Shown: positions 1,912-35,066 of the stretch, piece after piece
Position numbering within the stretch: the stretch's first letter is position 1
How the letters are laid out: every line of letters starts with the position of its first letter
Source: Nitrospirota bacterium
GTDB taxonomy: Bacteria > Nitrospirota > 9FT-COMBO-42-15 > HDB-SIOI813
Direction: 5' to 3'
DNA length: 39,402 bases
Assembly (NCBI GenBank): GCA_016217665.1
Contig: JACRHF010000002.1
Coordinates: 1 to 39,402, forward strand
Program-made: the position numbers and the translations under genes
The notes under the pieces: generated by a model
Database searches by the model: none
What the model was told of the DNA's origin: nothing
What the model saw: the letters and a program-made list of their open reading frames with translations, nothing else

Positions 1912-2373
1912 TTATTTCTTGACAGGCGGTGCAGGCGGGGCCTGTCCGGCCTTCGACATTGAGAGGGCGATCTCTTTGGCCTTATCACGCTGGTCCTTGG
2001 TGAGCACCTTATTCTCAAGGGCCATCGCCTCTATGACGGTAAACTTCCCGTCTGTCTCAAGGGTGACGATATTGTTTAAAAGCTCACGGACCTTTTTGAG
2101 ATCAACCTCTTCTTCCTTTGTAACCGCATTCAGTGCTTGCTGTGCCTTTATAATAGACGGGGTGAGCGCCTCCAACTTTTTGATCGCCTCCTTTTCGACC
2201 GCCATCAACTTATCTTCCTGCTCCTTGGAGATTCCAATCTTGTCTTTTACAGAGAGATAGAAAGGGGCTGGTCCCACACCCCTCTTGGTTTGGTTTTGTT
2301 CCTCTGCTATCGAAGGTGTCGCAGCCGCTATGCTCAAGACAATTGATAATCCAAGCAGTAAAAGTTTTTTCAT
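1912..2373 (-). CDS. Spy/CpxP-like periplasmic protein
   Basis: Signal peptide MKKLLLLGLSIVLSIAAATPSIA followed by a helical region (LGISKEQEDKL-like pattern, KVLTKDQRDKAKEIA). Confidence 0.55.
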   Translation of the reverse strand: MKKLLLLGLSIVLSIAAATPSIAEEQNQTKRGVGPAPFYLSVKDKIGISKEQEDKLMAVEKEAIKKLEALTPSIIKAQQALNAVTKEEEVDLKKVRELLNNIVTLETDGKFTVIEAMALENKVLTKDQRDKAKEIALSMSKAGQAPPAPPVKK

Positions 2374-2434
2374 CGAGTGGCTCCTTTTGGTTTTAAGGTT
2401 AACAGGTACAGTGTAGCGTAATCGTGAAAAGACG

Positions 2435-3427
2435 TCAATTTAGGGAAATTCCGGCGGAGTAGTGTACCTTCCCCTGGCTGTCGACGATGACCCCCTCGAT
2501 TCCAGGAAGGCCTTTAATCAGCTTCATGCCGTCTTCAGGTCCGAGGACAAAGACGGCCGTGGAGAGGGCATCGGAGGTCATGGTGTCAGGGGCTAAGATA
2601 GTGACGCTCTGACAGCCCCTTGCCGGATAGCCTGTCTTGGGATCCATGATGTGGTGGTAGAGGATTCCGTCTTTGATAAAAAATCTCTCATAATCTCCGG
2701 AGGTCGAGATGGAGATGTTGCTGAGGGGCAATTTACCGAGGAGTCTTTCCCTGCTCCGGGGATGCCGGATGCCGATGTCCCAAGGTTTTCCATCGTTCGT
2801 CCCTTGGACCCGCATATCCCCCCCTGCCTTTACGATGGCATTTTTAATGCCGGAGTTAACCAGCGCCTGCATGGCCTTATCCACCGCATAACCCTTTGCA
2901 ATGGCGCCAAGTCCGATGGCCATCTCCGGTTTCCTGAGGAAGACGGTCTTTTTGACCTCATCCAGTTCAATATTTTTATAGTTGACTAAGGGAAGCATCT
3001 TCTGGATCTCCTCCGGCGCCGGGAGGCGCTCCTGCCCCTTTGCAAAATTCCACACCCCCCGCATCGCGGCCCAGGAGATGTCAAAGGCGCCGTTGGAGAG
3101 TCCGGAGACCTTCTGTGCCGCTGCAATGACCTGGAATAGCTCATCCGGCACGGGCACAGCCTCTTTGCCGGACTTTTGATTGACAAGGGATATGGGAGTG
3201 CCATCCCTCCACTCGCTCATCTCGGCTTCGATCCGCTCCATCTCCCGGATCGCCGCATCAAATGCTGCATTCACCCTGGCCTCATCCGTCTCATCTGCAG
3301 CAGAGGCCGTCAGTTCTATATCCGTACCCATGACGACACTGTTTCTTTTAAATACCTCTGCCGCAGAAAGGGGAGGGGTTGTTAAGGAGGTGAGTATCAG
3401 AAGGATAAGGACAACCGGCTTATACAT
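2435..3427 (-). CDS. apbE: FAD:protein FMN transferase (ApbE)
   Basis: MGTDIELTASA, MSEWRDGTPISLVNQ, DISWAAMRGVWNF, GLGAIAKGYAVDKA, AGGDMRVQG, YHHIMDPKTGYPARG, SDALSTAVFVLG. Start set at MYKPVVLILLILTSL (signal peptide); the longer ORF start reads through a repeat. Confidence 0.93.
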   Translation of the reverse strand: MYKPVVLILLILTSLTTPPLSAAEVFKRNSVVMGTDIELTASAADETDEARVNAAFDAAIREMERIEAEMSEWRDGTPISLVNQKSGKEAVPVPDELFQVIAAAQKVSGLSNGAFDISWAAMRGVWNFAKGQERLPAPEEIQKMLPLVNYKNIELDEVKKTVFLRKPEMAIGLGAIAKGYAVDKAMQALVNSGIKNAIVKAGGDMRVQGTNDGKPWDIGIRHPRSRERLLGKLPLSNISISTSGDYERFFIKDGILYHHIMDPKTGYPARGCQSVTILAPDTMTSDALSTAVFVLGPEDGMKLIKGLPGIEGVIVDSQGKVHYSAGISLN

Positions 3428-3438
3428 ATCTACACTAT

Positions 3439-3582
3439 AAATTTGATGAACTCGTAAAAAGTCGCCAGAAGCACTATTTGTCATTCTGAGCGAAGCGAAG
3501 AATCTGATAAAACAATGAGTTATCAGACCCTTCGCTTCGCTCAGGGTGACAGTGAAGGACTTTTTACGATTTCATCAGATTT
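3439..3582. repeat. MITE-like nested inverted repeat (about 144 bp)
   Basis: Outer arms aaatttgatgaactcgtaaaaagtc / gactttttacgatttcatcagattt, with an inner palindrome gtcattctgagcgaagcgaagaatctga...tcagacccttcgcttcgctcagggtgac (3480..3550). Confidence 0.8.
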
Positions 3583-3740
3583 GATTGGAGCTTTGATGGG
3601 AAAGAACCTGATATGGAAGGAGATTGACCTGATCGTTGAGTTTCTTCATTCCCTGGAGAGGAGAATTCCGGAAGAGGCTTTAAGATTACCGGTTCTGCCG
3701 GCATCTACACCGGCTACACCAAAACCGGTTTTTAAATAAC

Positions 3741-3953: not shown

Positions 3954-5771
3954 TTATTGGGGTATTAGCGGCCAAAAGAGCGGGAATAATAAGACGATTG
4001 TTATGAATAAAAGTAGCGTCAACGGCAAGCCGACTTTTAAAAAGTCTCTAAAACTATACCCTCCCGGACCCATAATCAGCATGTTTACCGGGTGCCCCAG
4101 GGGTGTCATAAAGGCCATTGATGTTGCTAAAGCTACGCCCATGACCATTGACCGTGGATTTGCACCAATGTCCCGGGCTGCTTGAATAGCAATCGGGGCC
4201 ATGATGGCGGCCACAGCAGCACCATTCATGGCTTGGGTTAACAATACAGTCAGCCAAAACAACCCCCCCAGCAGAACCAGAGGACCGGCCGGCCCTACTA
4301 TTGTAATTATCCATTCCGCAAGGAATGAGGCAGCACCGGTTTTAGTGATTGCAATGCCCATCGGCAGCATCCCGGCAACCAGGAATATGGTCTTCCATTC
4401 AACCGATTGGTAGGCCTGGTCCATCGTCAACACTCCGAGCAGCACCATCGCCAGCGCCCCGCCCAGCATTGCCTCACCAACGATTGTTGGCCGGAGTGCC
4501 GCCAGCAGCAAAACGACACCCATAATGATTAATGCCAGCCGGCCTTTGCCAGGTACTAATTTTACTTTTTCTTTACCATTCGCCAATACTATGATATCCG
4601 GTTCAGTGTGTAGTATCCGCAGACGCTCGCGTGGCCCTTGCATGAGAAGCGCATCCCCGAACTGAAGAGGCAGATCGGTTAGGCCGGTGTGGATTTGCCG
4701 GCCGCCGCGCCAGATCGCCAGCACCGTCAGACCGTACTTATCGCGAAAGTGTGCCTGACGCAGTGTTTGGCCGATTAGCCCGGAACGTGGAGCCAATACT
4801 GCTTCAGCTACTACAATAGCGGTTGATTCCAGGTCTTGCTCGCTCCAGTTGCGGGGCGGAAGAATCTCAAAGTAGGGTTCCACATCGAGCTGATGTAAAT
4901 CCTCTACCTTACCAGTAAAAAGGATGATGTCGCCTTGCTGCAGGATATGATCCGGGGTTGGGGAAAGGGTTACAAGGCCGTTTCGCTCGATTGCTACCGC
5001 AGTGAGATTGAATCGTTCCCTGAATGCACTCTGGGCCAATGATTTGCCGTTCATAACTGATCCAACCGGTACGCGAATCCGGAATAAACTTTCACCGAGA
5101 CGATAAACATCAATTAGGTCGCCTTCAGTCTGGCGGATGGCCTCCATATAATGGGCAGGCGCTTGCGCCGGCAACATGCGCCGTCCGACAAGCACCATAT
5201 AAGCCACACCAACAATGACAACAGGCAGGCCTATGGGAGCGAAGTCTAACAGGCCATAACCGGCCAATCCATGATCACGCAGCAGGCTGCTGACGACAAT
5301 GTTGGTGGTAGTGAGCAGGGTGGCCATGCCACCAAGAATCGTAGCGAAAGCCAGAGGCATCAAAGTACGCGCAGGATTAACCCCCGCCTTGTGTCCGGCC
5401 CCCGAAACTACTGGCAGCAGGACCGACGTTGCAGCGATGTTGTTCATAAAAAGGGAAAGGAATGCACCAGCCAGCATAATGATCATCACCAGCCAGCTCT
5501 CACGGGTACCGGCAATTCTTGCCAGTAGATTGCCGATCTGTTCAGTTACGCCAGTGCGCCGTAACCCGTCTGCCAGGATAAATATGGCCAGTATAGTAAT
5601 TACCGCCGAACGGCTGAAACCGGAGAATGCTTCCTGGGGTGTCAGAATACCGGTCAACCCGAGGGTGACTACAGTCAACAGAGCAATGAGGTCGGCGCGC
5701 ATACGGTTGCTCAGAAACAAGCCAACGTCTGCAATCAGGATTATGAAAATGAGAAGTAGTTGGATATTCAT
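3954..5771 (-). CDS. SLC13-family permease with two RCK_C (TrkA-C) domains
   Basis: About ten hydrophobic segments; FLSLFMNNIAATSVLLPV and MTPLGHPVNMLIMGPGGYSFRDFLKVG motifs; two RCK-like domains (FRIRVPVGSVMNGKSLAQSAFRERFNLTAVAIERNG; VLAPRSGLIGQTLRQAHFRDKYGLTVLAIWRGG). Confidence 0.9.
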   Translation of the reverse strand: MNIQLLLIFIILIADVGLFLSNRMRADLIALLTVVTLGLTGILTPQEAFSGFSRSAVITILAIFILADGLRRTGVTEQIGNLLARIAGTRESWLVMIIMLAGAFLSLFMNNIAATSVLLPVVSGAGHKAGVNPARTLMPLAFATILGGMATLLTTTNIVVSSLLRDHGLAGYGLLDFAPIGLPVVIVGVAYMVLVGRRMLPAQAPAHYMEAIRQTEGDLIDVYRLGESLFRIRVPVGSVMNGKSLAQSAFRERFNLTAVAIERNGLVTLSPTPDHILQQGDIILFTGKVEDLHQLDVEPYFEILPPRNWSEQDLESTAIVVAEAVLAPRSGLIGQTLRQAHFRDKYGLTVLAIWRGGRQIHTGLTDLPLQFGDALLMQGPRERLRILHTEPDIIVLANGKEKVKLVPGKGRLALIIMGVVLLLAALRPTIVGEAMLGGALAMVLLGVLTMDQAYQSVEWKTIFLVAGMLPMGIAITKTGAASFLAEWIITIVGPAGPLVLLGGLFWLTVLLTQAMNGAAVAAIMAPIAIQAARDIGANPRSMVMGVALATSMAFMTPLGHPVNMLIMGPGGYSFRDFLKVGLPLTLLLFITIVLLFPLFWPLIPQ

Positions 5772-6030
5772 TCGATATGAATATGGATAGGAATTTACTT
5801 TTCTGAGGTTAAAGTAGCAGGATGAGATTTTGCTGTCAATAGGAATTCCCACCATCCCAGATGCATGAGGATATTCTGAGGGAGGCGAGTATCAGAGATA
5901 AGAACATCCGGCTTAATCTCTGCGCCCCCTTTAGCCTTGACAGTCAGTGCCTCCTTTCCTTATAATCCTTTAATACGAGGTCTTACGCTATGTATTCTAT
6001 TGCCAGATTGCTGAAAAAGTCTTTTTGTTT

Positions 6031-6129
6031 GTCATCCTGACCCTGAACGAAGTGAAGGGGAAGGATCTGACTCCTAAGGAGAACAGAGAGTTATCAGATT
6101 CTTCGTCGCCCTGGGCGACTCAGAATGAC
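6031..6129. repeat. Degenerate palindromic repeat of the gtcattctgag/ctcagaatgac family
   Basis: gtcatcctgaccctgaacgaagtgaagg...cagattcttcg...ctcagaatgac, bracketed by ttgctgaaaaagtc / ggatttctcagcagcc. Confidence 0.65.
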
Positions 6130-12947: not shown

Positions 12948-14075
12948 ATGTCCCCAGACAAGACCAAGACCTACATGCAGATGGCCCTGAGATTGGCAAA
13001 GAAGGGGATGGGTATCACAAGCCCCAATCCCATGGTCGGGGCCGTCGTGGTGAAAGACGGCAGGGTCATAGGCAGGGGATATCACAAAGGCCCCGGCAAA
13101 TGGCACGCCGAGGCCGTCGCTATCCGGGATGCGGGTCCTGAGGCCAAGGGCGCGACGCTCTATATAAACCTTGAGCCGTGCTGTCATACCGATAAAAGAA
13201 CCCCGCCCTGCACTAAGGAGATCATCCGGTCAGAGATCAGGCGTGTGGTCATCGGGATGGAAGATCCCAACCCCATGGTCAATGGCCGCGGGATCCAGGA
13301 ACTTGCCGGGGCCGGTATCCAGGTAGAAAAAGGGATCCTTTATCCGGAGGCCGTCCGGTTGAATGAGATCTACTCCAAATTCATTTCTACGAAGACCCCC
13401 TTTGTCATTTTAAAAAGCGCATCGAGTCTGGATGGGAGGATTGCCCTCCCTTCCGGTGAATCCAAATGGATTACAGGAGAGACAGCCCGGAGATACAGCC
13501 ATCGGCTCAGGGCCATGGTGGATGCCGTGCTTGTAGGGATAGGGACTGTCCTTGCGGATGACCCTTTGCTCAGCGTCAGAGATACGGGGATCCGGGGAAA
13601 ACAGCCTCTTCGTATCATTGTAGATTCCAGACTTCGCATTCCCCTGACCGCTAAGGCGCTCGATCAGGGAGGAGGTCAGGAGACGATGATTGTGACGACA
13701 AAGGCGGCATCCGGCGAGGCGGTGGAGGCCCTTGAAAAGATCGGAGTAAAGACCCTGATCGCCGCGAGCCGGGAGGACGGCGAGGTCAGCCTCCGGTCTC
13801 TGATGGGAGAGTTGGGAAAATTGGGGATCAGCAGTGTCCTCATTGAGGGAGGGTCTAAGATCAATGCGTCCGCCCTCAGGGAAGGGGTGGTGGATAAGGT
13901 CGCCATCCTCTATTCTCCCCGGATCATCGGGGGGAGTGATTCGATCGGTATGGTCGGGGGGACGGCCCCAGGATCGCTGGATGAGTCCATCTTCCTGAAA
14001 GATATGCACATCAGGCGATTAGGTGAAGATATTTTAGTAGAAGGGTATGTGAGGAAAGTAATGAGCAATGAGTGA
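12948..14075 (+). CDS. ribD: Bifunctional diaminohydroxyphosphoribosylaminopyrimidine deaminase / 5-amino-6-(5-phosphoribosylamino)uracil reductase
   Basis: SPNPMVGAVVVKDGRVIGRGYHKGPGKWHAEAVAI, LEPCCHTDKRTPPC deaminase motif; C-terminal reductase SSLDGRIALPSGESKWITGE, IEGGSKINASAL. Confidence 0.96.
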   Translation: MSPDKTKTYMQMALRLAKKGMGITSPNPMVGAVVVKDGRVIGRGYHKGPGKWHAEAVAIRDAGPEAKGATLYINLEPCCHTDKRTPPCTKEIIRSEIRRVVIGMEDPNPMVNGRGIQELAGAGIQVEKGILYPEAVRLNEIYSKFISTKTPFVILKSASSLDGRIALPSGESKWITGETARRYSHRLRAMVDAVLVGIGTVLADDPLLSVRDTGIRGKQPLRIIVDSRLRIPLTAKALDQGGGQETMIVTTKAASGEAVEALEKIGVKTLIAASREDGEVSLRSLMGELGKLGISSVLIEGGSKINASALREGVVDKVAILYSPRIIGGSDSIGMVGGTAPGSLDESIFLKDMHIRRLGEDILVEGYVRKVMSNE

Positions 14076-14101
14076 TGAGTGATGAGTAATTGTGACATTC
14101 C

Positions 14102-14167
14102 GTCATTCCCGCGGAAGCGGGAATCCAGAATAAAGAAGACTGGATTCCGGGTCAAGCCCGGAATGAC
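14102..14167. repeat. Palindromic repeat, 'gtcattcccgcg..cgggaatccag / ctggattcc..gggaatgac' family
   Basis: Direct sequence match to the copies at 24580, 26709 and 34976. Confidence 0.85.
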
Positions 14168-14242
14168 AACTACGTGCCATGTAATTATACAAATGTACTT
14201 CTTAGTATAAGAGATAAGAGGCAAGAGGCGGGGAGTGGTGTT

Positions 14243-14833
14243 ATGTTTACAGGGCTTATAGAAGAACTTGGCTCAGTCAAGGGGATAAGATCTCAGTCAG
14301 GCGGGATGAGGCTTTCCATTGCCGGCAAGACCGTCCTGGACGGGATGAGGACAGGGGATAGCATTGCTGTCAATGGCGCCTGTCTTACGGTGGTTGAGAT
14401 GAGTCATTCTGTCTTCGGGGCGGATGTCTCTAAGGAGACCCTGACAAAGACAACCCTGGGAAGGCTCCGGGTTGGAGACCGGGTAAATCTGGAACGCGCC
14501 ATGAGACCCACAGACCGCCTCGGCGGCCACCTCGTTGCCGGCCATGTTGATGCCGTCGGCGTGATCCGCACCATCGAACGGACAGGAGAGGCCTCTCTCT
14601 TCACCTTTGAGGCGCCTCCGGAGATCTCAAGATACCTGATCTACAAAGGCTCCATTGCCGTTGACGGGATCAGCCTCACAGTCAACGAGGTCCAGGGGGA
14701 GAGATTCACGGTGATCCTCATCCCGCACACCGCCCGTCAGACCACCCTTGGTTTCAAGAAGGCCGGAGACCCCGTAAACCTTGAGGCAGACATGATCGGG
14801 AAATATGTCGAGAAGTTTGTAAAAACAAGATGA
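14243..14833 (+). CDS. ribE: Riboflavin synthase alpha chain
   Basis: MFTGLIEELGSVKGI, NGACLTV, GGHLVAGHVDAVG, KGSIAVDGISLTVNEV, IPHTARQTTLG, NLEADMIGKYVEKFVKTR. Confidence 0.96.
   Translation: MFTGLIEELGSVKGIRSQSGGMRLSIAGKTVLDGMRTGDSIAVNGACLTVVEMSHSVFGADVSKETLTKTTLGRLRVGDRVNLERAMRPTDRLGGHLVAGHVDAVGVIRTIERTGEASLFTFEAPPEISRYLIYKGSIAVDGISLTVNEVQGERFTVILIPHTARQTTLGFKKAGDPVNLEADMIGKYVEKFVKTR
14783..14823 (+). repeat. Direct repeat copy A (3' coding end of ribE)
   Basis: gaggcagacatgatcgggaaatatgtcgagaagtttgtaaa; 39 of 41 identical to 16030..16070. Confidence 0.95.
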
Positions 14834-14932
14834 GTAGTGAAAATAAATCCCCTTTTTTTATCATCACCATGGCTGTAAATCAATTGACCGTTAATCGCCT
14901 TAAATTGGATTATTACATTGGAGGTTGATCCT

Positions 14933-16024
14933 GTGAAAAGGGTTATATTTATCGGCCTTCCATTATTATTGCTCTTAACCGGTTGCGGGACGGGAGATAA
15001 GCTAACCCCTGCCAAAATCTCTGATGCTCCCACAGGCCTTGTGGCTACGGTCATCTCGAAAACTGAGATTGGACTCACATGGAACGATAATTCTTCGGAT
15101 GAAGACGGTTTTAATATCGAAAGAAAAGAAGGACCCTGGGGGGGGTTCCAGAGGATAGCGCTGGTCGGAGCAGACGTTACCACTTATCATGACAGAGGCT
15201 CAAACAACTTAACACCGAACACCACCTATTACTATCGTGTTGCCTACTATAGAGGGAATGAAGTATCTGAATATTCAATGGCGGCCAGTGCGACAACATT
15301 GAAGAAGTCCCTGTCTTTAAAGAAGACAGAAATGACACAACTCTCCCCGTATGTGGGCATTGTCTTGAGACTCCTCACCGGGGAAGCAGACCTGATTGAT
15401 GAGGATAAAATCCTGATCCCGGAGGACGGCTCCTGCCCTTATGAGGGATGGGAGACGTATATTCCGGAGGAACTTAATGACGATACGATCCGGAAGACAT
15501 TCATTTACGAGAGGTGCAAAAAAAACCATCCCATTGCCTCAGATATCGTTGTCCGCTACAATGGCCGCGGGGTCATAAACTATTATTCCCCGGATTATTG
15601 GAGGAGCGACCCACTTCGGGCCCCATATCTTCCAGGGCGTGCGGTAACAAAGCATATAGAGAGTCTTCATGAAGAGGAATTTGACTCCCAGGGAATGATT
15701 CTTCAGTCCGGAGTGGTGTACGAAGATTTTACCATGAGCGCCACAGAGACAGGAGATGATGTCTGGTATTGGACAATGGAGGGTACCATTATACCGGATT
15801 CCTGTGGTGGCAAGAGATTTGTGCTAAAGACCCTCCTGCCCCTTTACTGGCCTTTCACATCTGCTTGTCCTCTCGGAGGGGAGATTGTTGTGACCGGTGA
15901 TGACAGGGGAGTTACCCTCCGGTTCCTCGACAACCAGACAGCAGAGGTAGATGTGGGGAGCGATGGGTTTGTGGACGAGACTGTGAATTGCCAGGTAGTG
16001 ATGAACTCGGACTTCTGTATGTAA
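14933..16024 (+). CDS. Lipoprotein with fibronectin type III domain
   Basis: Lipobox MKRVIFIGLPLLLLLTGCGTG (GTG start, ggagg upstream); FN3-like APTGLVATVISKTEIGLTWNDNSSDEDGFNIERK...LTPNTTYYYRVAYYRGNEVSEYS; the C-terminal domain is not recognised. Confidence 0.8.
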   Translation: MKRVIFIGLPLLLLLTGCGTGDKLTPAKISDAPTGLVATVISKTEIGLTWNDNSSDEDGFNIERKEGPWGGFQRIALVGADVTTYHDRGSNNLTPNTTYYYRVAYYRGNEVSEYSMAASATTLKKSLSLKKTEMTQLSPYVGIVLRLLTGEADLIDEDKILIPEDGSCPYEGWETYIPEELNDDTIRKTFIYERCKKNHPIASDIVVRYNGRGVINYYSPDYWRSDPLRAPYLPGRAVTKHIESLHEEEFDSQGMILQSGVVYEDFTMSATETGDDVWYWTMEGTIIPDSCGGKRFVLKTLLPLYWPFTSACPLGGEIVVTGDDRGVTLRFLDNQTAEVDVGSDGFVDETVNCQVVMNSDFCM

Positions 16025-16029
16025 TCATA

Positions 16030-16070
16030 GAGGCAGACATGATTGGGAAGTATGTCGAGAAGTTTGTAAA
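16030..16070 (+). repeat. Direct repeat copy B (second ribE 3'-end copy, no ribE body upstream)
   Basis: gaggcagacatgattgggaagtatgtcgagaagtttgtaaa; reads EADMIGKYVEKFVNPAR* in frame to the TGA at 16081. Confidence 0.95.
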
Positions 16071-16178
16071 CCCCGCCCGCTGATTGGTCAGCAAATTGAC
16101 TTTTTTTGCCTATGGCATCATGACAATATAGTATCTTTCCTGTTTCATACAACCACATTTTTTAACGACAAATAGATT

Positions 16179-18674
16179 ATGAGTAACCCTCATGTACATA
16201 TCGCTGAATTAGAGACAGAGCTCATCCGCATAAAGGAAGAGCTTGAGAAGGCCAGAGAACAGGCAGGGGAGCTGGAGTCTGTCCGTAAAGATATGCTCTC
16301 TCTTCTTGAGGATCTGAACAAATCTGCCGCCATCATAAAAAGGGGAGAGAAGGAGTGGGAGACTATCGTTGATGCCATCGCAGACCCTATCTTCATCCGT
16401 GACAAAGACTTCAGGATCATCAGGGCCAACAAGGCATACGCCGCGGCCTCTGGGATGCCCTTTAAAGAGATCATCGGGAAACCTTACTACACGGTTTTTC
16501 CAAAGATGGAAGGCCCATGCAAGGTCTGTCTGAATGCCCTGGGATCGCCCACACCATGTGAAGATGATATCTCCGTACCCACCATCGGCAGGTCTTTTAA
16601 TATAAAGTCCTTTCCCATATGGGGTGAGAATGGCAGTTTCCTCTATTCTGTCCACTTCATGGAGGACATTACAGACCAGAAGAGGGCAGAGGACGCACTC
16701 CGGGCCTCGGAGAATAAATACCGCCATCTATTTGATAACCTGCATGACGCCGCCTTCCTGGCAGACGCAGAGACCGGACACATTGTTGATACCAACAAAA
16801 AGGCAGAGATACTATTGGACCGGAGGCGTGAAGAGATCATCGGTATGCACCAGAGTGAGTTGCATCCGCCTGGTAAGGCGGGAGAATACCGCCGCAGGTT
16901 TGAGGAGCACCTTCAAAAGGGACCTCTTGCGGATTATGAGGGAGAGGTCATCAGAGGGGATGGGAGGGTTGTTCCGGTAGCCATCACCGCGTCACCCATG
17001 ACCATCAATGGCAGACGACTGATCCTCGTCTTGTTCCGGGATATCACTGAATGGTGGGAGATGATGGAGAGGTTAGAGGAGGAGGTGGAGGTCAATAGGG
17101 CGCTCCTCGACACAGCAGAGGCGATCAGATTAATCTTTGATAGGGATACAATGTTCAAAAGGGTTGCAGAGGGTGTTTCCACAGTAGTTGATGCAGAGAG
17201 GTGCGTCATCTTCCTGTGGGAGAGGGAACAGGGCGGCTTTTTGCCGGCCCATGTTTCCGGGATTGTCCCGCCGGAGCTGCGACCATTCCTTATGAGGCAA
17301 AGGCTTACCCGGGATATGACGATTGTGGAACAAATCTTAAGGGGGGAGACAGTGATTATTGATGACGTCATGAATAGCCCCCTATTCCCAAGAGAGGTCG
17401 CCGAGACCTTGGCCATCAGGACTATGATGGGTATTCCTATCCGGGGTACAACCGGGGTCTTGGGTTTTATAGATGTCGAGCGGATCGGGATTCCGAGGCC
17501 ATTCGGGGAGAAGGAAGAGGAATTCCTGAAAGGGGTGGCACACCAGGTTGCTGTGAGCCTTGACAATGTCAGGCTTTATGAGGAGATGAGGGATCAGACT
17601 ATAGAGCTTACTCAGAGGGTAGAGATCCTCAGGGTAATGAACGAGATAGATAAGAGCATCCTCTCCTGCTCAGATACCCACGAGATCCTGGAGACAGTGA
17701 CGCAGATGGTAGCAAGTCTGATCCCCTGTGATAGAGTGACTGTGGGCTTTGTTGATAAGGAAAGGGAAGGGTTTGTCTATAAGGCAGGATTTGGGACAAA
17801 GTTTGCCAAAGGGATGTTTATCCCCTTCACGGATACCTCGACTGCAGAGGTTGTCAGGACAGGAAGGTCACAGTATATTTCTGATCTCTCGATGGAAAGG
17901 GAACCTTTGAGAGTGGAAAGGATATTGATGGAAGAAGGTTATCACTCCCCCGTACGGCTTCCACTGTTCGTGAAGGGAGAGACCATAGGCGTCCTTAGTG
18001 TGGGCAGCAGACGGGTCGCGGCCTTTCACCCTGACCAGGTTGCGACCCTGGAAAAGCTTGCAGCACAGATCGCCGTGGCCCTTGAAAACGCAAGGCTTGT
18101 AACAGACATGAAGGAGCTCTTCTTTGGTATTGTGGGGGCCCTTTCTGCAGCGATTGATGCCAAGTCTCCATGGACCGCAGGACATTCCCATAGGGTGACG
18201 CAATATTCCCTGACCATTGCTAAGGCGATGGGCATGGGTGAAAAGGACCTGAAAGACTTAGAGCTGGCAGGCCTCCTCCATGACGTGGGGAAGATCGGGA
18301 CGTATGATGTTATCCTTGAAAAGCCCGGAAGGTTGACAGAGGAGGAGCTTAAGATCATGAGACTGCATCCCTTAAAAGGGGCAGAGATATTGGGGGCTAT
18401 GAAACATATGAAGGAGATTATCCCTGCCATCAAGCACCACCACGAATTTTATAACGGGGAGGGATACCCTGGGGGTTTAAAAGGGGAGGCCATCCCTCTG
18501 ATGTCAAGGATCCTTGCGGTTGCCGATACAGTTGATGCGATGGGGGCGGACAGGCCCTATCGAACAGGGAGATCAAAAGAAGAGATCATAGCCGAACTTC
18601 AGCGATGTTCAGGGAGTCAGTTTGACCCGAAGGTCGTGGAGGCCTTTCTCCATATCAAAGCCCTTCCGTTGTAA
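16179..18674 (+). CDS. PAS-PAS-GAF-GAF-HD-GYP signalling protein (predicted c-di-GMP phosphodiesterase)
   Basis: Two PAS domains, two GAF domains (VDAERCVIFLWERE; IPCDRVTVGFVDKE), and HD-GYP signature GLLHDVGKIGTYDVILEKPGRLTEEE...HHEFYNGEGYPGGLKGEAIPLMSRILAVADTVDAMGADRPYR. Confidence 0.92.
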   Translation: MSNPHVHIAELETELIRIKEELEKAREQAGELESVRKDMLSLLEDLNKSAAIIKRGEKEWETIVDAIADPIFIRDKDFRIIRANKAYAAASGMPFKEIIGKPYYTVFPKMEGPCKVCLNALGSPTPCEDDISVPTIGRSFNIKSFPIWGENGSFLYSVHFMEDITDQKRAEDALRASENKYRHLFDNLHDAAFLADAETGHIVDTNKKAEILLDRRREEIIGMHQSELHPPGKAGEYRRRFEEHLQKGPLADYEGEVIRGDGRVVPVAITASPMTINGRRLILVLFRDITEWWEMMERLEEEVEVNRALLDTAEAIRLIFDRDTMFKRVAEGVSTVVDAERCVIFLWEREQGGFLPAHVSGIVPPELRPFLMRQRLTRDMTIVEQILRGETVIIDDVMNSPLFPREVAETLAIRTMMGIPIRGTTGVLGFIDVERIGIPRPFGEKEEEFLKGVAHQVAVSLDNVRLYEEMRDQTIELTQRVEILRVMNEIDKSILSCSDTHEILETVTQMVASLIPCDRVTVGFVDKEREGFVYKAGFGTKFAKGMFIPFTDTSTAEVVRTGRSQYISDLSMEREPLRVERILMEEGYHSPVRLPLFVKGETIGVLSVGSRRVAAFHPDQVATLEKLAAQIAVALENARLVTDMKELFFGIVGALSAAIDAKSPWTAGHSHRVTQYSLTIAKAMGMGEKDLKDLELAGLLHDVGKIGTYDVILEKPGRLTEEELKIMRLHPLKGAEILGAMKHMKEIIPAIKHHHEFYNGEGYPGGLKGEAIPLMSRILAVADTVDAMGADRPYRTGRSKEEIIAELQRCSGSQFDPKVVEAFLHIKALPL

Positions 18675-18851: not shown

Positions 18852-19439
18852 ATGGCTGCTCCGAAGATTTTAGTCCTTTTCTACAGCAAGACAGGGCATA
18901 TGCTCAAGATGGCAAGGTCTGTTGCCAAGGATGCCAAAGAGGCGGGGGCAGAGGTCCGTCTGAGGAAGGCGTCAGAGCTTGCGCCCCGCGAGGTGATCGA
19001 GGAGACCCCGGAGTGGAAGGCGATCTATAGCCAGATGTCAGACATCCCGGATGCGGTGATAGACGACCTGGTCTGGATGGACGGCGTGATCGTAGGGACG
19101 CCGACGCGTTTTGGGAATATGGCGGCGCCGATGCGGAACTTCTGGGATCAGACCGGGAAGCTCTGGATGGAGGGGACATTGATCGGAAAGACCGTGTCCG
19201 CCTTTGCATCCGCCGAGATGATACACGGGGGGCAGGAGGCAACACTCCTCTCCATGTATCCGACGTTCTTTGCCCATGGGCTGATCGTCGTGGGGATCCC
19301 GGGCAATGTCAAAGAGCTCTATAAGTCAGGCTCTTATTACGGGGCCCTCTCCAGCGGCGAACCGAATGATACTGATCTCACCGTGGCAAGATATATGACC
19401 CAGAGACTGATCGAGGTTACCAAGAAGCTGAGGGGCTGA
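18852..19439 (+). CDS. wrbA: WrbA-like NAD(P)H:quinone oxidoreductase (flavodoxin fold)
   Basis: KILVLFYSKTGHMLKMARSVAKDAKEAGAEV, DGVIVGTPTRFGNMAAPMRNFWDQTGKLW, VSAFASAEMIHGGQEATLLSMYPTFFAHGLIVVG. Confidence 0.93.
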   Translation: MAAPKILVLFYSKTGHMLKMARSVAKDAKEAGAEVRLRKASELAPREVIEETPEWKAIYSQMSDIPDAVIDDLVWMDGVIVGTPTRFGNMAAPMRNFWDQTGKLWMEGTLIGKTVSAFASAEMIHGGQEATLLSMYPTFFAHGLIVVGIPGNVKELYKSGSYYGALSSGEPNDTDLTVARYMTQRLIEVTKKLRG

Positions 19440-22400
19440 TGCTCAATGTCATCCTCGGCCACTTTCATCCTGACTTAGAAGACGCCCTCTGTAACAATAT
19501 AGCCGCCCTTAAGGCCGAAGACCCTCTAAGCCCTATTGCGGTCATTGTCCCTTCAGGCCGGATCCGGTCCAGGCTCAGGTCGCTCTTTGCCAAAGAGCGG
19601 GGGATGAGCCTGCTCCATATCCACCTTCTCACATTTCACGACCTCACAGTCCGCCTCTATGAGGAGAGGTATGGGCGGTTGCAACGCCTCATCGGGGATG
19701 ATTTCTTTTTTGTAGAATTTATCCGGCAGATCTTAAACGAGGGGCTTTCAGGGATGGAAATATTCCGCCATTTCAGTGAGACCCCTGACGGTTGTGCGGC
19801 CCTGCGGGCGACCTTAGAGGATCTGAGGGAGGCCAAGGTTGACGCAGATAATCTGCCGAATAATCTGCCAAATAATTTAATCGAAGCGCTCCGGGAGGGG
19901 GTCTTCAGCGCAGAGGATACAGAGAAGATCACCCCTTTGATCGGGCTATATCAGGCCTTCCTTCTAAAGAAGGACACGCTTGGGATCATAGACTATTCAG
20001 ACCTGACAGATATTGCCTCAGAGCTTGCCCCTGCATCTGAATATCTCCGCAGATTCCGGGAGATTATCTACTATGGATTTTATGACCTTATTCAAGTCCA
20101 GTACGACCTGTTCCGTGCCGTGGCACACCACTATCCGACGACACTCTATTTTCCTCTGGTTGACGGGATGCCTGCCTTCTCTTTTGCCAAGAGATTCTAT
20201 GAAGGGTATGTCCAGGGGATGGTTCCTCATCCAGGCGGGATTACCAAAATTTCTACCCCTGTTGTAACAGGGGCCGGCAGGGATACCCTTTTCCCATTTG
20301 GCCATCTCGCAAAGATCATCAGTACATCCGGTGCCGAGGATGAGGTCCTGACCGCGGCCAAGGGGATACTCCAATTGGTAGACAGTGAGGGATACAGTTT
20401 TTCAGATATCGGTGTTGTTGCCAGGGGGATCGATGATTACGGGCCCCTGATCCGGAGGGTCTTTGATGCTCACAAGATCCCCTTTGTATCGAGTGCCCGC
20501 GAGCCCATCAACAGGTATCAGGTCACCAAGATCGTCCATCTCCTGATCTCCTTAAACCGGGAGGATTACAGGCGTTCTGATATCATGGATATCCTCTCCT
20601 CTCACTTTTGTAGGACCCGGCTCTTCTGTCCTGAAGGCGTGGAACCCAGACCGGATCTGTGGGATTTTGTGACCCGCTCCATTGGTATCTCCAAGGGATT
20701 CGGTGAATGGTCTAAAGTGGATCGCTATGTCCGGGAGGGTTTTGTCTTCCATGGGCGTGGAGAAGACGAGGTCAGCCGGCAGGTGATCCCCGGGGCGCAG
20801 ATTGAAGGACTCCAACGGTTCGTCTCATCCATCCGGGAGGACTTTGGCGCCTTGCCGGAGAAGAGTTCCTGGGGACATTATGCAGAGCTGTTTCAGGCAT
20901 TCATCCGTAAATATATTAATGAAGAGCTGTTTATCGAAGAGGCGCTCTTCTCCCTGAAGGAACTTGACCTGATCCGAAGGGAGGTTCCATTACCGGAGTT
21001 CATTGACACCTTCAGGAGGCGATTGGAGGGGGAGTCAATCCCAATAATAGGCCCCATAGGCCCCGTCGGGGAGGGGGAGATTGCGGGTGTCCAGGTCCTG
21101 GATGTCATGGCCGCGCGCTGTATCCCGTTTAAGGTCCTCTTCGTCATCGGCATGAATGAGAAGGTCTTTCCGAGGAACATCAAAGAAGACCCCCTGTTGA
21201 GAGATTCGGCAAGGGGGGTCCTGGAGAGGGGGCTTGGGTACAAGATTACAGAGAAACTCTATGGATACGAAGAAGAGAGGCTCCTCTTTTATCTCCTCCT
21301 CCATTCTGCAAGAGAGAGGATCTATATCCTCTATCAAAGGACAGATGAGGCAGGACAGGTGAAGATCCCCTCGTCTTATATAGCAGAGATACGAAGGGGA
21401 TACCCTGTTCCGGAGGAACGGGTCCCGAGGCGGATGGCTGATAAATTTTCATTATCAGAATTTTTCTCACACCGTCTCCTGACGCCTAAGGAGCTCTCCA
21501 TAAGATTTATCTTTGAAGGGAGAGACCCGGGACCCATCCTCTCAAGATTCAGCATGAACCCGGCATTGTACGGACATGGGGTTCAGGCCCTGTTGCAGTA
21601 TGAAGAGATGGGGGCCGGACTGACTCCGTTTGACGGGTCTACCGGTGGGATCGCTCCCCACTGGCTTTATATCACACAGAGAGGGATCTCCCCCACGTCT
21701 CTTGAGGATTATGCCCGATGCCCGTTCGCCTATTTTGCCCGCCACGTACTTGGGCTTCAGAGACTGATGCAACCTGAGCTGATCTTTGAGATCCCCCCGC
21801 TGGATATCGGGAGCATTTGTCATAAGGTCTTGAGGCGGTTCTATGCACGGGGGGTGGAGAGGATCCCATCGTCTGCAGAGATAGAGAGGTTACTTCAGGA
21901 GGATATGACTGCCGTATTCCTGGAATATTGGGAAACCAACCCGGCGGGATATCCGCTGGTATGGGAGATATTACAGGAGAGGCTCTCAGGGATTCTTAAA
22001 GCGATGATCCGGGACGACTTGGACGAGATGGCCCGGTCAGGATTCACTCCCCACAGCTTTGAGGCCGATGCCTCCGGATGCCTTATGGAAGATCTCCCTG
22101 AGGATATGCGCGACATCTCCCTGCACGGGGTCCTCGACAGGATTGACGTTAAAGAGGAGACCAGCCAGTTCAGGATTATTGATTATAAATTCAAGTCCGG
22201 GAAGAAGATGTCCAGTGACGACAAAAATCTTTCCCTCTCAGCCATCCGGGGAAAGAGGCTGCAACCCCCCTTATATCTCCTGATGGCGACACCCTATCTC
22301 AAATATACAGCCGGGATCAAAGACCCGCAGCCGGAGAAGGTAAGCTTTTATTTTGTAGCCCCGGGGTGGTCTGCTGATGAAGAGAGCGAACCCCGTTCCG

Positions 22401-22630
22401 TGTTTCCAGGAGATTGCTGGTACACACCGCTTGGTGAAAGAGTAACGGCCACGGTGGCCCTTTTGCTGAAGGGGATCCGGGAGGGATTGTTCTTTATCCT
22501 GCCGGGTGATTACTGTAGTCACTGTGACTATTCTGCCATCTGCCGGAAAAATCACTTCCCGTCACGATATCGTGCAGAGCGGGATGTCCGGGTTAAACCA
22601 TACTATGCCATAAGGAAACAGAAGATATGA
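19439..22630 (+). CDS. addB: AddB-like recombination nuclease/helicase subunit with PD-(D/E)XK domain and probable Fe-S cluster
   Basis: FVIGMNEKVFPR, YARCPFAYFARHVLGLQ, FRIIDYKFKSGKK, CSHCDYSAIC (four-Cys pattern C...CxxC...C); overlaps wrbA and addA. Confidence 0.85.
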   Translation: MLNVILGHFHPDLEDALCNNIAALKAEDPLSPIAVIVPSGRIRSRLRSLFAKERGMSLLHIHLLTFHDLTVRLYEERYGRLQRLIGDDFFFVEFIRQILNEGLSGMEIFRHFSETPDGCAALRATLEDLREAKVDADNLPNNLPNNLIEALREGVFSAEDTEKITPLIGLYQAFLLKKDTLGIIDYSDLTDIASELAPASEYLRRFREIIYYGFYDLIQVQYDLFRAVAHHYPTTLYFPLVDGMPAFSFAKRFYEGYVQGMVPHPGGITKISTPVVTGAGRDTLFPFGHLAKIISTSGAEDEVLTAAKGILQLVDSEGYSFSDIGVVARGIDDYGPLIRRVFDAHKIPFVSSAREPINRYQVTKIVHLLISLNREDYRRSDIMDILSSHFCRTRLFCPEGVEPRPDLWDFVTRSIGISKGFGEWSKVDRYVREGFVFHGRGEDEVSRQVIPGAQIEGLQRFVSSIREDFGALPEKSSWGHYAELFQAFIRKYINEELFIEEALFSLKELDLIRREVPLPEFIDTFRRRLEGESIPIIGPIGPVGEGEIAGVQVLDVMAARCIPFKVLFVIGMNEKVFPRNIKEDPLLRDSARGVLERGLGYKITEKLYGYEEERLLFYLLLHSARERIYILYQRTDEAGQVKIPSSYIAEIRRGYPVPEERVPRRMADKFSLSEFFSHRLLTPKELSIRFIFEGRDPGPILSRFSMNPALYGHGVQALLQYEEMGAGLTPFDGSTGGIAPHWLYITQRGISPTSLEDYARCPFAYFARHVLGLQRLMQPELIFEIPPLDIGSICHKVLRRFYARGVERIPSSAEIERLLQEDMTAVFLEYWETNPAGYPLVWEILQERLSGILKAMIRDDLDEMARSGFTPHSFEADASGCLMEDLPEDMRDISLHGVLDRIDVKEETSQFRIIDYKFKSGKKMSSDDKNLSLSAIRGKRLQPPLYLLMATPYLKYTAGIKDPQPEKVSFYFVAPGWSADEESEPRSVFPGDCWYTPLGERVTATVALLLKGIREGLFFILPGDYCSHCDYSAICRKNHFPSRYRAERDVRVKPYYAIRKQKI

Positions 22631-25600
22631 AGGACCTTTCAGATGCAGAGGATAGAAGGCTTGCAGTCACGACCTTTGATAAAAATATTGTAGTGACGGC
22701 CGGGGCGGGTACAGGGAAGACCACACTGCTGGTGGAACGCATCCTCCATCTCCTGATGCGGGAGCCTGACCCCTTGCGGATTACGGACATCGTTGCCCTC
22801 ACCTTCACCAATAAGGCGGCCAATGAGATGAAGATACGTCTGAAGGAGAGGCTGCAGGGGCTGATCTCCACCCCTGTCTCCCAGGGGACGCTGCCCGATG
22901 AAGACCCTCTCCTGCAGGACCTCAGGGAGAGATACGGACTCAGCAGGGAGAAGATCGAAGCGAGGGCGCATGATGCGTCCAATGACCTGGAGATGGCCCA
23001 GATAGGGACCATGCACAGCTTTGCCGGGCACATCCTCCGCCTCTATCCGATAGAGGCCCGGATGGATCCCAAATTTCAGGAAGACGATGGTTCTGAATTT
23101 GAGGCGCATTTTGTGCGGGAGTGGGAGGGGTGGCTGGATGTTGAGTTGTCTTCAGAATCGCCGCGCCGGGGGCTGTGGAAGAGGGTGCTCCATTCGATCG
23201 GATTGGAATCCTTAGAGTCCTTTGCAAAGGAGCTCTGCAGAGAGAATATCCCGGTCCCCCGCCTCTTGTTATATTTCGATAATCAGGCGCAGAGTTACGA
23301 AGTGGAGAGATGGCTAAGGGAGATGAGGAACAGGGCAGAACGCCTCCTGTCGGTATATACCAAAACGAGGAAGGTAGAGCAGTTTTTGAAAGGGGCGTAC
23401 GATCTATTGGATCACCTCCTCTCAAAGAAAGAGGGAGTCCCCGTGATGGAGGGGACCCTCTCCGGCACCCCTCCATCCGGCTGGAGCGAAGAAGACTTCC
23501 GGGAGGCAAAACAGATCATCAGGACGGCGAAGGGGATCTCCTCTGCGGACGTCCCCTTTTTCAGGAGCCTCTTGGAACTTCTCTTCCCCTTTGTAACAGA
23601 GACCCGGAGAAGATTTACGGCCTCAGGTTATATCTCCTTTGACGGACTCCTCACCTCCTGCAGGGACCTTTTGAAGACGCACCTCAGGGTGCGGGGAGAG
23701 TTGAAGCAACGGTTTAAGGCGTTATTGGTTGACGAGTTTCAGGATACAGACCCCATCCAATATGAGATCATCCTTTATCTCTCAGAAATCCCGGGACACT
23801 GTGAGGCAGAGTGGCACAAGATACAATTGACTCCGGGGAAGCTATTTATTGTCGGAGACCCGAAGCAGTCTATCTATGCCTTCCGCCGCGCCGATATCGA
23901 GGCCTATTCCCGCGTGGTGGAGATGATCATCTCAGGACAGGGGGGTATTCAGGCAGCCCTTTCCACCAATTTCAGGAGCCATGACCGGATCATTGATGTT
24001 GTGAATGAACTCTGCGGGCATCTGATCCGGAGGCGTGAACTCCTTCAGCCGGAGTACATTCCCTTGATGGAACATCCGGACCATAAGGCAGGTCTGTCAG
24101 GACAGAGGGTTGAGCTAAGGATTGTGGATGGCCGGGGGGTGGAAGATATGGATGCCTCTATGGCAAGCCGGTGTGAGGCAGAGGCCATCGGAAGGTGGCT
24201 GAAAGAGGAGGTGATCGGAAAGGAGACGCTCATGGACTCCAAGGGGGGGAAGGCGCTTGTCTCCCCGCGGCATGTGGCCCTCCTGTTCCGCAAGCTCACA
24301 GAGGTCTATGAATACCTTGAGGTGCTCCGGCGGTATGAGATTCCTTATATTGTCGAAGGGGAGAGGCATTTCTTTGGGACACAGGAGGTGATTGATTTTG
24401 TCAATCTCCTGAAGGCCATAGACAATCCCTTTGACAGGGTGGCCTTGGTGGGCGTCCTCCGGTCTCCGCTGGGCGGGCTGTCTGACAGGGAGATCTATGA
24501 ACTGGGCAAGGGGGGATTTGATCGAGGACTTCCGGAAGAACCCCACATGCCCATCCGGGGCGCAAAGGAACATGGAAACGTCATTCCCGCGCAAGCGGGA
24601 ATCCAGAACGCAGACAGTGGTCTGGATTCCCACTTTCGTGGGAATGACGGGCTTCTCCCGGAGCTCTGCAGCATATTGAGAAGGCTTCATCAGGAGACAG
24701 GCACCATGTCCCTCACAGACGCCATCCACCATATCTTTGATTCCCTGCCAATGCTCGAGTTTGCCGCGTCTTCTTATCAGGGGGAACAGGCCGTAGCAAA
24801 CCTGATGAAGATACAGAGGATCGCAGAGTCCCTCAGCACCCGGTCCAATCTCACACTCAAAGGTTTTACAACCCTGTTGGAGACAAAGGTGACGGGCATG
24901 GAAGAGGAGGGGGAGAGTCCGCTGGCAGAGGAGACGGTGGATGCCGTGCGTGTGTTGAGTATCCACAAGGCCAAGGGGCTTGAGTTCCCTCTGGTCATAT
25001 TAGCGGGGATGCACAGCTCCCTGAAAGGGGGTGAAGACCAGGTCAGCGTGATCCATGACTGGTCACGGGATGAGGTAGGATTTAAGGTGGAGGGGTTTAG
25101 AAATCCTGCGGCCGTGATGCTGCAGGAGAGGGGATTGGTGCGGGATGAGGAGGAGCAGAAGAGGCTCCTTTACGTCGCCATGACAAGGGCGCGGGAATGC
25201 CTTGTCCTGTCGGGGACCCTGTATGGAAGGGCCAACAGGGGCAGTTTCCTGTCACTGGTGACAGAGGGCATGGGCGAGGCCGTGGGAGAGAGGTCCAGCC
25301 GTGAGATAGAAACCGGGAAGGGGAGGATCAGGCAGTCTGTTATAGACGTTGCTGATTGCATCCCAAACTATAGTTCAAAGAAGCCCCGTAAATCAGGCGG
25401 CAAAGACCAGAGGCCAGAGGCCAGGGGAAATCAATATGGGGACGTTGTCCCGGAAGAGATAGGGGTATTTGCGGATCTGTGGGAATCGAGAGACCACCGG
25501 TATGCGACCATCCGAAGTAAGTCCCTGTTTGTGACCCCATCGGGGCTAAAAGAAGCGGCGGAGGCTAAGCCGGCCCCGAAGAAGACAGAGGCGGCTGAGG

Positions 25601-26172
25601 GGGATAGAGCAGCGCGAGAGCGATCCATGCTCATAGGGACAATAGCCCACGCTGTTCTTGAACAGTGGGACTTTGGAAGGGACCCTGCCTTGTTCAAACA
25701 CACGATAGACGAGGCTTGCCTCAAGTTTATCCCCACCGGTAATCCCCCTTATTCCCCCTTTAGAAAAGGGGGGAAGGGGGGATTTGATCGGGGATTCTCA
25801 GATAAAGCATCATCAATCCTCACAGAACTCTATGAGATATTTGATTCCTTCTCAGCCTCCCCTGCCTATGATGAGCTGCGCAGGGCAACGATTATCGGCA
25901 GGGAGGTCCCCTTTGTCATACCGTGGGGAGGACAGGTGATGAACGGAGTTATTGATCTCATATACCGGGAGGGGGAGCGACTCTATATAGCGGACTATAA
26001 GACAGACAAGATCTCAGAGGGGGATGTCGCTGAGAAGATCAAGGGATATGCCCTTTCAGGGAAGATATATATGGAGGCAGTCCGGCGGTCTCTCAGGCAA
26101 GAGGTTAGCGGGTTTAAGCTTATATTCTTACGTCTGGGAAGAGCCATAAACCTCACTACCGGTGCAGAATGA
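22627..26172 (+). CDS. addA: AddA-like UvrD/RecB-type helicase-nuclease
   Basis: VVTAGAGTGKTTLLVERIL (Walker A), ALTFTNKAANEMKIR, LLVDEFQDTDPIQYEII, FIVGDPKQSIYAFRRAD, LSIHKAKGLEFPLVILAG, LLYVAMTRARECLVLSG, LYIADYKTDKI (PD-(D/E)XK). Confidence 0.95.
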   Translation: MKDLSDAEDRRLAVTTFDKNIVVTAGAGTGKTTLLVERILHLLMREPDPLRITDIVALTFTNKAANEMKIRLKERLQGLISTPVSQGTLPDEDPLLQDLRERYGLSREKIEARAHDASNDLEMAQIGTMHSFAGHILRLYPIEARMDPKFQEDDGSEFEAHFVREWEGWLDVELSSESPRRGLWKRVLHSIGLESLESFAKELCRENIPVPRLLLYFDNQAQSYEVERWLREMRNRAERLLSVYTKTRKVEQFLKGAYDLLDHLLSKKEGVPVMEGTLSGTPPSGWSEEDFREAKQIIRTAKGISSADVPFFRSLLELLFPFVTETRRRFTASGYISFDGLLTSCRDLLKTHLRVRGELKQRFKALLVDEFQDTDPIQYEIILYLSEIPGHCEAEWHKIQLTPGKLFIVGDPKQSIYAFRRADIEAYSRVVEMIISGQGGIQAALSTNFRSHDRIIDVVNELCGHLIRRRELLQPEYIPLMEHPDHKAGLSGQRVELRIVDGRGVEDMDASMASRCEAEAIGRWLKEEVIGKETLMDSKGGKALVSPRHVALLFRKLTEVYEYLEVLRRYEIPYIVEGERHFFGTQEVIDFVNLLKAIDNPFDRVALVGVLRSPLGGLSDREIYELGKGGFDRGLPEEPHMPIRGAKEHGNVIPAQAGIQNADSGLDSHFRGNDGLLPELCSILRRLHQETGTMSLTDAIHHIFDSLPMLEFAASSYQGEQAVANLMKIQRIAESLSTRSNLTLKGFTTLLETKVTGMEEEGESPLAEETVDAVRVLSIHKAKGLEFPLVILAGMHSSLKGGEDQVSVIHDWSRDEVGFKVEGFRNPAAVMLQERGLVRDEEEQKRLLYVAMTRARECLVLSGTLYGRANRGSFLSLVTEGMGEAVGERSSREIETGKGRIRQSVIDVADCIPNYSSKKPRKSGGKDQRPEARGNQYGDVVPEEIGVFADLWESRDHRYATIRSKSLFVTPSGLKEAAEAKPAPKKTEAAEGDRAARERSMLIGTIAHAVLEQWDFGRDPALFKHTIDEACLKFIPTGNPPYSPFRKGGKGGFDRGFSDKASSILTELYEIFDSFSASPAYDELRRATIIGREVPFVIPWGGQVMNGVIDLIYREGERLYIADYKTDKISEGDVAEKIKGYALSGKIYMEAVRRSLRQEVSGFKLIFLRLGRAINLTTGAE
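24507..24648. repeat. Composite repeat insert inside addA (GGFDRG-type tail + catg..ccgggg..aaaggaacat module + VIPAQAGIQ-type palindrome)
   Basis: aaggggggatttgatcgagg (24507-), catgcccatccggggcgcaaaggaacatgg, then gtcattcccgcgcaagcgggaatccag...ctggattcccactttcgtgggaatgac (24580..24648). Reading frame is preserved. Confidence 0.85.
25741..25790. repeat. 'aatccccctta..aaaagggggg..ggggatttgatcg' palindromic repeat inside addA
   Basis: aatcccccttattccccctttagaaaaggggggaaggggggatttgatcg; same family as 35277..35360 and 36204..36254. In-frame peptide NPPYSPFRKGGKGGFDRGF. Confidence 0.88.
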
Positions 26173-26668: not shown

Positions 26669-26708
26669 CTTGTTAATTCCTGGTAGCTTGGCTACCGTAT
26701 GTCATTTC

Positions 26709-26776
26709 GTCATTCCCACGTAAGTGGGAATCCAGTGTGTTGCACTGCTCTGGATTCCTGCTTTCGCAGGAATGAC
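26709..26776. repeat. VIPAQAGIQ-type palindromic repeat
   Basis: gtcattcccacgtaagtgggaatccag...ctggattcctgctttcgcaggaatgac. Confidence 0.85.
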
Positions 26777-26830
26777 GGCGGGTTTGTTTAGTTGCCCTGT
26801 TGGACATAGAACATCTTAGAGAGGACTTCT

Positions 26831-34975: not shown

Positions 34976-35044
34976 GTCATTCCCGCGGAAGCGGGAATCC
35001 AGAACGCAGGCAGAGGACTGGATTCCCACTTACGTGGGAATGAC
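34976..35044. repeat. VIPAQAGIQ-type palindromic repeat
   Basis: gtcattcccgcggaagcgggaatccag...ctggattcccacttacgtgggaatgac. Confidence 0.88.
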
Positions 35045-35066
35045 GGGTACTTGGAGGGATTTTCAG

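Follow-up and report, generated by a model that had tools for sequence, protein, structure and literature searches.

Several forms of insertion next to conserved genes have been described in bacteria. In integrase-free hotspots, variable regions devoid of integrases lie next to a core gene, which itself presents an excess of recombination (Oliveira et al. 2017, PMC5635113). Restriction-modification (RM) systems have been reported to insert with long target duplications of variable length (Nobusato 2000 and Furuta 2010, as summarized in PMC3031569), and integrase-made islands occupy the 3' ends of genes, according to the accounts given for SGI1 at trmE (PMC8409611) and for islands at transfer RNA genes (tDNA; PMC4383910). 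Homology-facilitated illegitimate recombination constitutes a further relevant process (Harms and Wackernagel 2008, cited in PMC3410848). Here we compare with these systems a locus at the 3' end of ribE, the gene encoding riboflavin synthase, in a Nitrospirota bacterium. The stretch analyzed, henceforth the window, encompasses 39,402 nucleotides (positions 1 to 39,402 of contig JACRHF010000002.1, assembly GCA_016217665.1); it is contig C6 of its source genome (G000), a draft with 115 contigs and 77% completeness, and it harbors an FN3-domain lipoprotein gene between the end of ribE and a second copy of that end.

The analysis indicates that the window probably preserves the footprint of a single gene insertion at ribE, generated by homologous recombination together with a second, illegitimate junction. 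As judged from the compared sequences, the end of ribE is a recurrent insertion site in the Nitrospirota, used mostly by toxin-antitoxin, RM and abortive-infection genes, and the loci suggest that these insertions can be layered, with the order ribE-cargo-ribE'-cargo.

The duplicated ribE terminus

The window contains a complete ribE gene (14243..14833, forward strand, like all features of the window given with a gene span below), which encodes two Pfam Lum_binding domains and a product ending in EKFVKTR. The terminus of this gene is part of a 50-nt direct repeat (D1), with copies at 14774-14823 (copy A) and 16021-16070 (copy B) that are identical at 45/50 positions (90%) and present a spacing of 1247 bp. 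When copy A was aligned without gaps along the next 4 kb, this 45/50 match scored highest, and the maximum attained in 200 codon-block shuffles was 29/50, which excludes a chance origin for the repeat. The original prediction had described a 41-bp repeat of the ribE terminus differing only synonymously, and this description is accurate: the 41-bp core is identical at 39/41 positions, with both differences at third codon positions of the EADMIGKYVEKFV core. Copy A translates as VNLEADMIGKYVEKFVKTR and copy B as VIIEADMIGKYVEKFVNPAR, each up to its stop codon. Copy B is hence still open in the ribE frame, as had been claimed, ending at a TGA codon (16081-16083) and defining a remnant reading frame that encodes EADMIGKYVEKFVNPAR (16030..16083).

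Past the core, the two tails are unlike (KTR in copy A, NPAR in copy B), and the copy B tail resembles those of the related genomes G003 (NPSR) and G002 (NPKS), a likeness that would lend weak support to copy B being the old end of the resident gene. Synonymous divergence by itself suggests that one of the copies is of foreign origin. Taking into account the chimeric ribE ends and the colinearity observed in relatives, copy A, the terminus in use, would have arrived with the cargo, and copy B, the orphan terminus, would be the displaced end of the resident gene.

The insert between both copies consists of the lipoprotein gene alone (14918..16024, with its start probably at 14933; Pfam fn3, 4e-6), without an integrase, and no tyrosine recombinase was seen when searching the window contig. 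The stop codon of the lipoprotein gene (TAA, 16022-16024) lies inside the repeat, as originally noted, near the start of copy B, where the similarity is weak. A lipoprotein homolog at an unrelated locus of G005 (L062) stops at the equivalent residue (DFCL), indicating that the lipoprotein gene in the window is complete and that its stop codon marks the beginning of the orphan end. The first bases of the orphan, GTAA, overlap this stop codon and its leading bases are partly ribE-like, as read from the joined product. PADLOC returned no match for the lipoprotein, which was therefore rejected as a known defence gene, and its assignment to a ribE-linked cassette family was likewise rejected, the homologs in G005 and G002 residing at other loci without ribE ends. 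The orphan end is followed by a gene encoding an HD-GYP/PAS/GAF protein (16179..18674; Pfam domains).

Single and orphan ribE ends in related genomes

The search for RibE covered 61 genomes and yielded matches in 54 of them; one family f1 genome with 99% completeness (G007) had no RibE match, and its ribE may have been lost or interrupted where a contig ends. It had been proposed that incoming DNA restores ribE with its own end and displaces the original one, and this is borne out in the relatives both by alleles with a single terminus and by different cargo between the same repeats. Within family f1, in which 7 genomes have a readable ribE end, a single end was found in G002, G003, G004, G005 and G008 (for G002 and G005, the downstream DNA compared spans ~1.1-1.4 kb). 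An arrangement like the empty site sought for the window is found in G008, whose lone ribE is separated by 209 bp from the HD-GYP gene behind it (L033:3508-5553). The product of this gene presents 50% identity over 555 aa and a similar architecture with its ortholog in the window, the next-best match in G008 being far weaker. The order of ribE and HD-GYP gene in G008 is the arrangement that would be expected for the window before the insertion.

Different cargo between the same repeats was detected in G006, with two ribE ends on contigs C66 (full ribE) and C130 (orphan end). On C66, ribE is followed by hsdR (in two frames), hsdM, a gene for an AbiLi/AriA-like ATPase, an RloB/AbiLii-like gene and the start of hsdS. 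C130 carries the rest of hsdS, the orphan end, one response-regulator gene and then a reverse-strand gene block that, recognized by looking at the sequence instead of by domain search, also follows ribE in G003, G004 and G008. The last 141 bases of C66 are identical to the first 141 of C130, inside hsdS, indicating that both contigs join and that an island of ~7 kb, made up of type I RM and AbiL-type genes, lies between ribE and its orphan end. The repeat in G006 spans 50 bp and contains one synonymous difference. The two genes situated between hsdM and hsdS in this island (loci L034/L104) form an AbiLi/AbiLii-type pair (AAA_21 and RloB).

Per-genome counts of a degenerate ribE-end pattern in 396 genomes of the phylum revealed second termini only in G000, in G006 and in genus g14, the genus of G047, which belongs to another family. 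Among the matches listed, these second termini are nearly always located just downstream of ribE and on the same strand. BLAST identified orphan ends in 12/52 g14 loci, two of them in tandem in G150, and two further genomes of the genus (G406 and G419) also contain orphans. Orphan ends are hence present in at least 14/79 g14 genomes, 0.5-5 kb downstream of ribE, and G344, where another ribE end lies at the edge of a contig, was left as a candidate. In 79 ribE loci of other origin, from wider phyla, no convincing orphan end was found, with weak matches in 8.

The cargo between ends in g14 corresponds mostly to toxin-antitoxin modules, comprising HigB with a helix-turn-helix antitoxin (HigBA), MazF-type, RelE/ParE-type, DUF433 with DUF5615-type and MNT with HEPN proteins, the RelE/ParE and DUF433/DUF5615 names resting on inspection of the sequence. 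One of the counted families was present within 7 kb downstream of ribE in 26/52 g14 loci. HigBA-like copies elsewhere (G392:C13, G405:C370) match only in the toxin-antitoxin part and are not accompanied by a ribE end. The repeats span 50 bp in f1; those of g14 vary in length, most of them measuring about 115 to 210 bp. A 274-aa protein encoded between ribE and a decayed orphan end in G109 (L138, 1186-2007) had no Pfam or PADLOC match and is a possible undescribed defence gene. Regions following ribE without an orphan end include genes for an AbiTii protein (L108 of G322, 4208-5122) and for a DUF3644/PDC-S19 candidate defence protein (L109 of G017, 5123-6121).

Origin of the orphan ends

The DNA that follows several orphan ends is the DNA that follows ribE in other genomes. 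The sequence after the G234 orphan is similar to that found right after ribE in G199, G203, G207, G221 and G382 (~250 bp, 86-89%), the orphans of G290 and G199 are followed by DNA matching the post-ribE DNA of G168 and G372, and that after the G087 orphan matches its relative G116. The orphan of G290 and the integron integrase gene behind it are colinear with the intact ribE and integrase gene of G417 over 1.6 kb (74%). In the same comparison, no partner locus was found for the post-orphan DNA of G047, G176, G236 and G340. Where they occur, these matches indicate that the orphan is the former ribE end in its native surroundings, and that the end attached to ribE came with the cargo. The displacement of the old end is thus documented in relatives (G234, G290, G199 and G087), and would extend by analogy to the window. 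The second orphan of G150 was dismissed as proof of age layering, since it involves a single array and a difference in nearest-relative divergence (0.19 vs 0.15) that is too small.

The comparison of 52 ribE genes from related g14 genomes, in pairs that are not independent, showed that tails are 13.0%, 14.2% and 13.7% apart in pairs whose bodies are, respectively, 0-6%, 6-10% and 10-14% apart. In pairs with bodies 18-25% and 25-40% apart, tails differ by 20.3% and 26.6% and are not more divergent than the bodies, which indicates that tails have been exchanged between lineages and led us to reject faster mutation of the tails. In g14, the bordering core gene therefore shows excess recombination, seen as decoupling of tail and body. 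The excess in tail divergence begins near -150 (in bp before the stop), roughly at the start of the commonest orphan homology, and likelihood change-points in close pairs are mostly scattered from -175 to -13, with no single fixed place. Orphan lengths vary with cargo type (about -54/-60, -115, -160, -187 and beyond -210). In G150, a tail like that of G087/G116 sits on a G234-like body, and in several genomes the nearest relative of the real end is not that of the orphan. The sister pair G276/G322 is 99.5% identical through the ribE stop and 2 further bases, then contains 0.2 and 5.2 kb of distinct DNA and becomes 99% identical again; this may represent an insertion with its second junction beyond the stop, and hence without an orphan.

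The scattered change-points, the cargo-dependent orphan lengths and the absence of tyrosine and serine recombinases beside ribE in 13/14 orphan genomes fit homologous recombination with a second, non-homologous junction in the resident ribE. Under this mechanism, a related bacterium would have donated a segment with the 3' end of its own ribE and, after it, the lipoprotein gene. Homologous recombination of this segment within the resident ribE would generate a complete, chimeric gene with the donor end, followed by the newly acquired cargo. At its far side, the segment would have been joined to a point in the final ~60 bp of the resident gene, so that the old terminus remains as an orphan (copy B) ahead of the resident HD-GYP gene. 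Because ribE stays whole, the insertion would be harmless. We infer that one junction arose by a RecA-type homologous exchange and that the other was illegitimate, as in homology-facilitated illegitimate recombination, and that the event in the window was of this kind. Of the two mechanisms offered by the original prediction, recombination with a diverged ribE thus provides the better fit; a minimal cassette mobilised in trans agrees poorly with the scattered breakpoints, the orphan lengths and the lack of a tyrosine or serine recombinase near ribE in 13/14 orphan genomes.

Several observations weigh against this explanation. For the window, there is no close relative that shows its ribE to be chimeric, and the lipoprotein is not known as a defence or toxin-antitoxin gene, as most of the relatives' cargo is. 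Some change-points lie far upstream (-511, -550) and the estimate of their scatter is noisy. The orphans of the window and of G006 begin at the same ribE codon (GTA AAC CTT GAG), which is unexpected for a random illegitimate junction and leaves some room for a site-specific event. Furthermore, 8 HigA-type orphans share one common junction, which arose once and then spread, so that one-off illegitimate joining is insufficient without later homologous spread; their occurrence across species suggests that ready-made cassettes spread later by homology. A broader proposal, which we advance tentatively and regard as doubtful, is that toxin-antitoxin and defence modules in the Nitrospirota travel as integrase-free 'gene-end cassettes'. 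These would use a ribE 3' piece as homology arm and dock at ribE across species via host recombination, always restoring ribE and stacking newest-first, with the gene end serving as an integron-like recombination site.

The site-specific event would involve a recombinase acting in trans on small circular cassettes, which would integrate by means of an attachment site resembling the 3' end of ribE and would have lost their integrase or never carried one. A regenerated gene end with the old end displaced is the architecture of integrase-made islands at tDNA targets, as outlined in PMC4383910. The two f1 insertions, which are unrelated, share their left boundary, and the orphans of G234 and G274 start 9 bp beyond it, in the same region of codons. 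We nonetheless consider this explanation unlikely, given the cargo-dependent orphan lengths and the scattered breakpoints noted above. Furthermore, no tyrosine or serine recombinase (PF00589, PF00239) was found near ribE in 13/14 orphan genomes. The exception, G290, encodes an integron integrase (TIGR02249, 473 bits against a cut-off of 265) that lies outside the insertion, because G417 has ribE directly before the same gene. The ribE-end motif was not found in IMG/VR, and a viral carrier was rejected on this basis.

An origin of copy B as the end of a second full ribE, produced by tandem duplication and stripped of its body by deletion, was named in advance as an alternative capable of refuting an insertion. 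It is compatible with the ribE frame and the synonymous-only changes of the copy B core, and with the long orphan of G199 (at least 210 bp), but it is very unlikely: there is no second full-length RibE match in the 61 genomes, several species have cargo-specific junctions in common, the sequence behind the orphans corresponds to ribE loci of other genomes, and this scenario does not predict that tails are exchanged among lineages.

Integron activity, with ribE ends as sites of the integron integrase and toxin-antitoxin genes as its cassettes, draws on the integrase gene located directly after the orphan end in G290 (L097, reverse strand, 2338-3636) and after the intact ribE in G417 (L251). It is, however, extremely unlikely, and the integrase was rejected as a driver: in light of G417, it belongs to native downstream DNA, its relatives (E up to 1e-40) occur in only 13/79 g14 genomes and most orphan genomes lack one, and only in G290 and G417, among these 79 genomes, was one seen next to ribE. 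By inspection of the sequence, the integrase gene is followed in both genomes by a gene for a TIR-like protein, and then in G417 by one for a group II intron-like reverse transcriptase. An assembly artefact joining two strains, conceivable in a draft genome, is scarcely credible, because the left neighbour of the orphan is a complete gene with no long stretch in common with ribE and the same architecture appears in G109 (one contig) and G047 (8 contigs).

Elsewhere in the window, ribE is preceded by ribD (12948..14075; Pfam RibD_C and dCMP_cyt_deam_1), encoding a deaminase with a RibD_C reductase domain. Imperfect palindromic repeats of ~70 bp, resembling repetitive extragenic palindromic (REP) elements and of the CGTCATTCCCGCG..GCGGGAATCC type, occur at 3479-3551, 14101-14170, 24579-24651, 26708-26777 and 34976-35047, one of the five copies being immediately upstream of ribE. 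Two large neighbouring genes at 19439-26169, ~3 kb downstream of the orphan end, encode AddB-like PD-(D/E)XK and UvrD-helicase domains and probably constitute an AddAB-type recombination nuclease pair.

Relation to described systems

The movement of defence and toxin-antitoxin genes without a visible recombinase is an open question, and the literature searched, with incomplete coverage, contained no paper on ribE as an insertion site of this kind. The end of ribE serves here as a record, in which each orphan marks one insertion and tells the incoming end from the resident one. The Nitrospirota ribE hence provides a countable system in which to test ordinary homologous recombination as the means by which small defence cassettes spread.

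With respect to homology-facilitated illegitimate recombination, a homologous anchor combined with a non-homologous junction would yield the three elements encountered here: a chimeric gene, the cargo and a remnant of the resident end. That process is reportedly known from transformation experiments, whereas at ribE it is proposed from the comparison of genomes. Compared with integrase-made islands as presented in the consulted accounts, the target gene is likewise regenerated by the incoming DNA and the old end displaced to the far side, but the inserts at ribE lack an integrase, measure about 0.5-7 kb and revealed no fixed crossover core.

The locus resembles the RM insertions, as they are summarized in the source cited, in that RM or comparable genes are bracketed by direct repeats that are long and vary in length, with no recombinase. 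It differs from them in that the copies diverge by 2% to about 30%, often synonymously, and in that one gene end is reused repeatedly. Where they can be compared, the copies come from different lineages, which points to one copy being foreign instead of a fresh local duplicate. As in the hotspots of Oliveira et al., a core gene borders an integrase-free variable region, and this gene, ribE, presents excess recombination in g14. In contrast with these hotspots, the resident end of ribE stays as an orphan, which places the second junction inside the same gene. The case of ribE, then, works like integrase-free hotspots and RM insertions, and what it adds to them is the displaced, diverged gene end.
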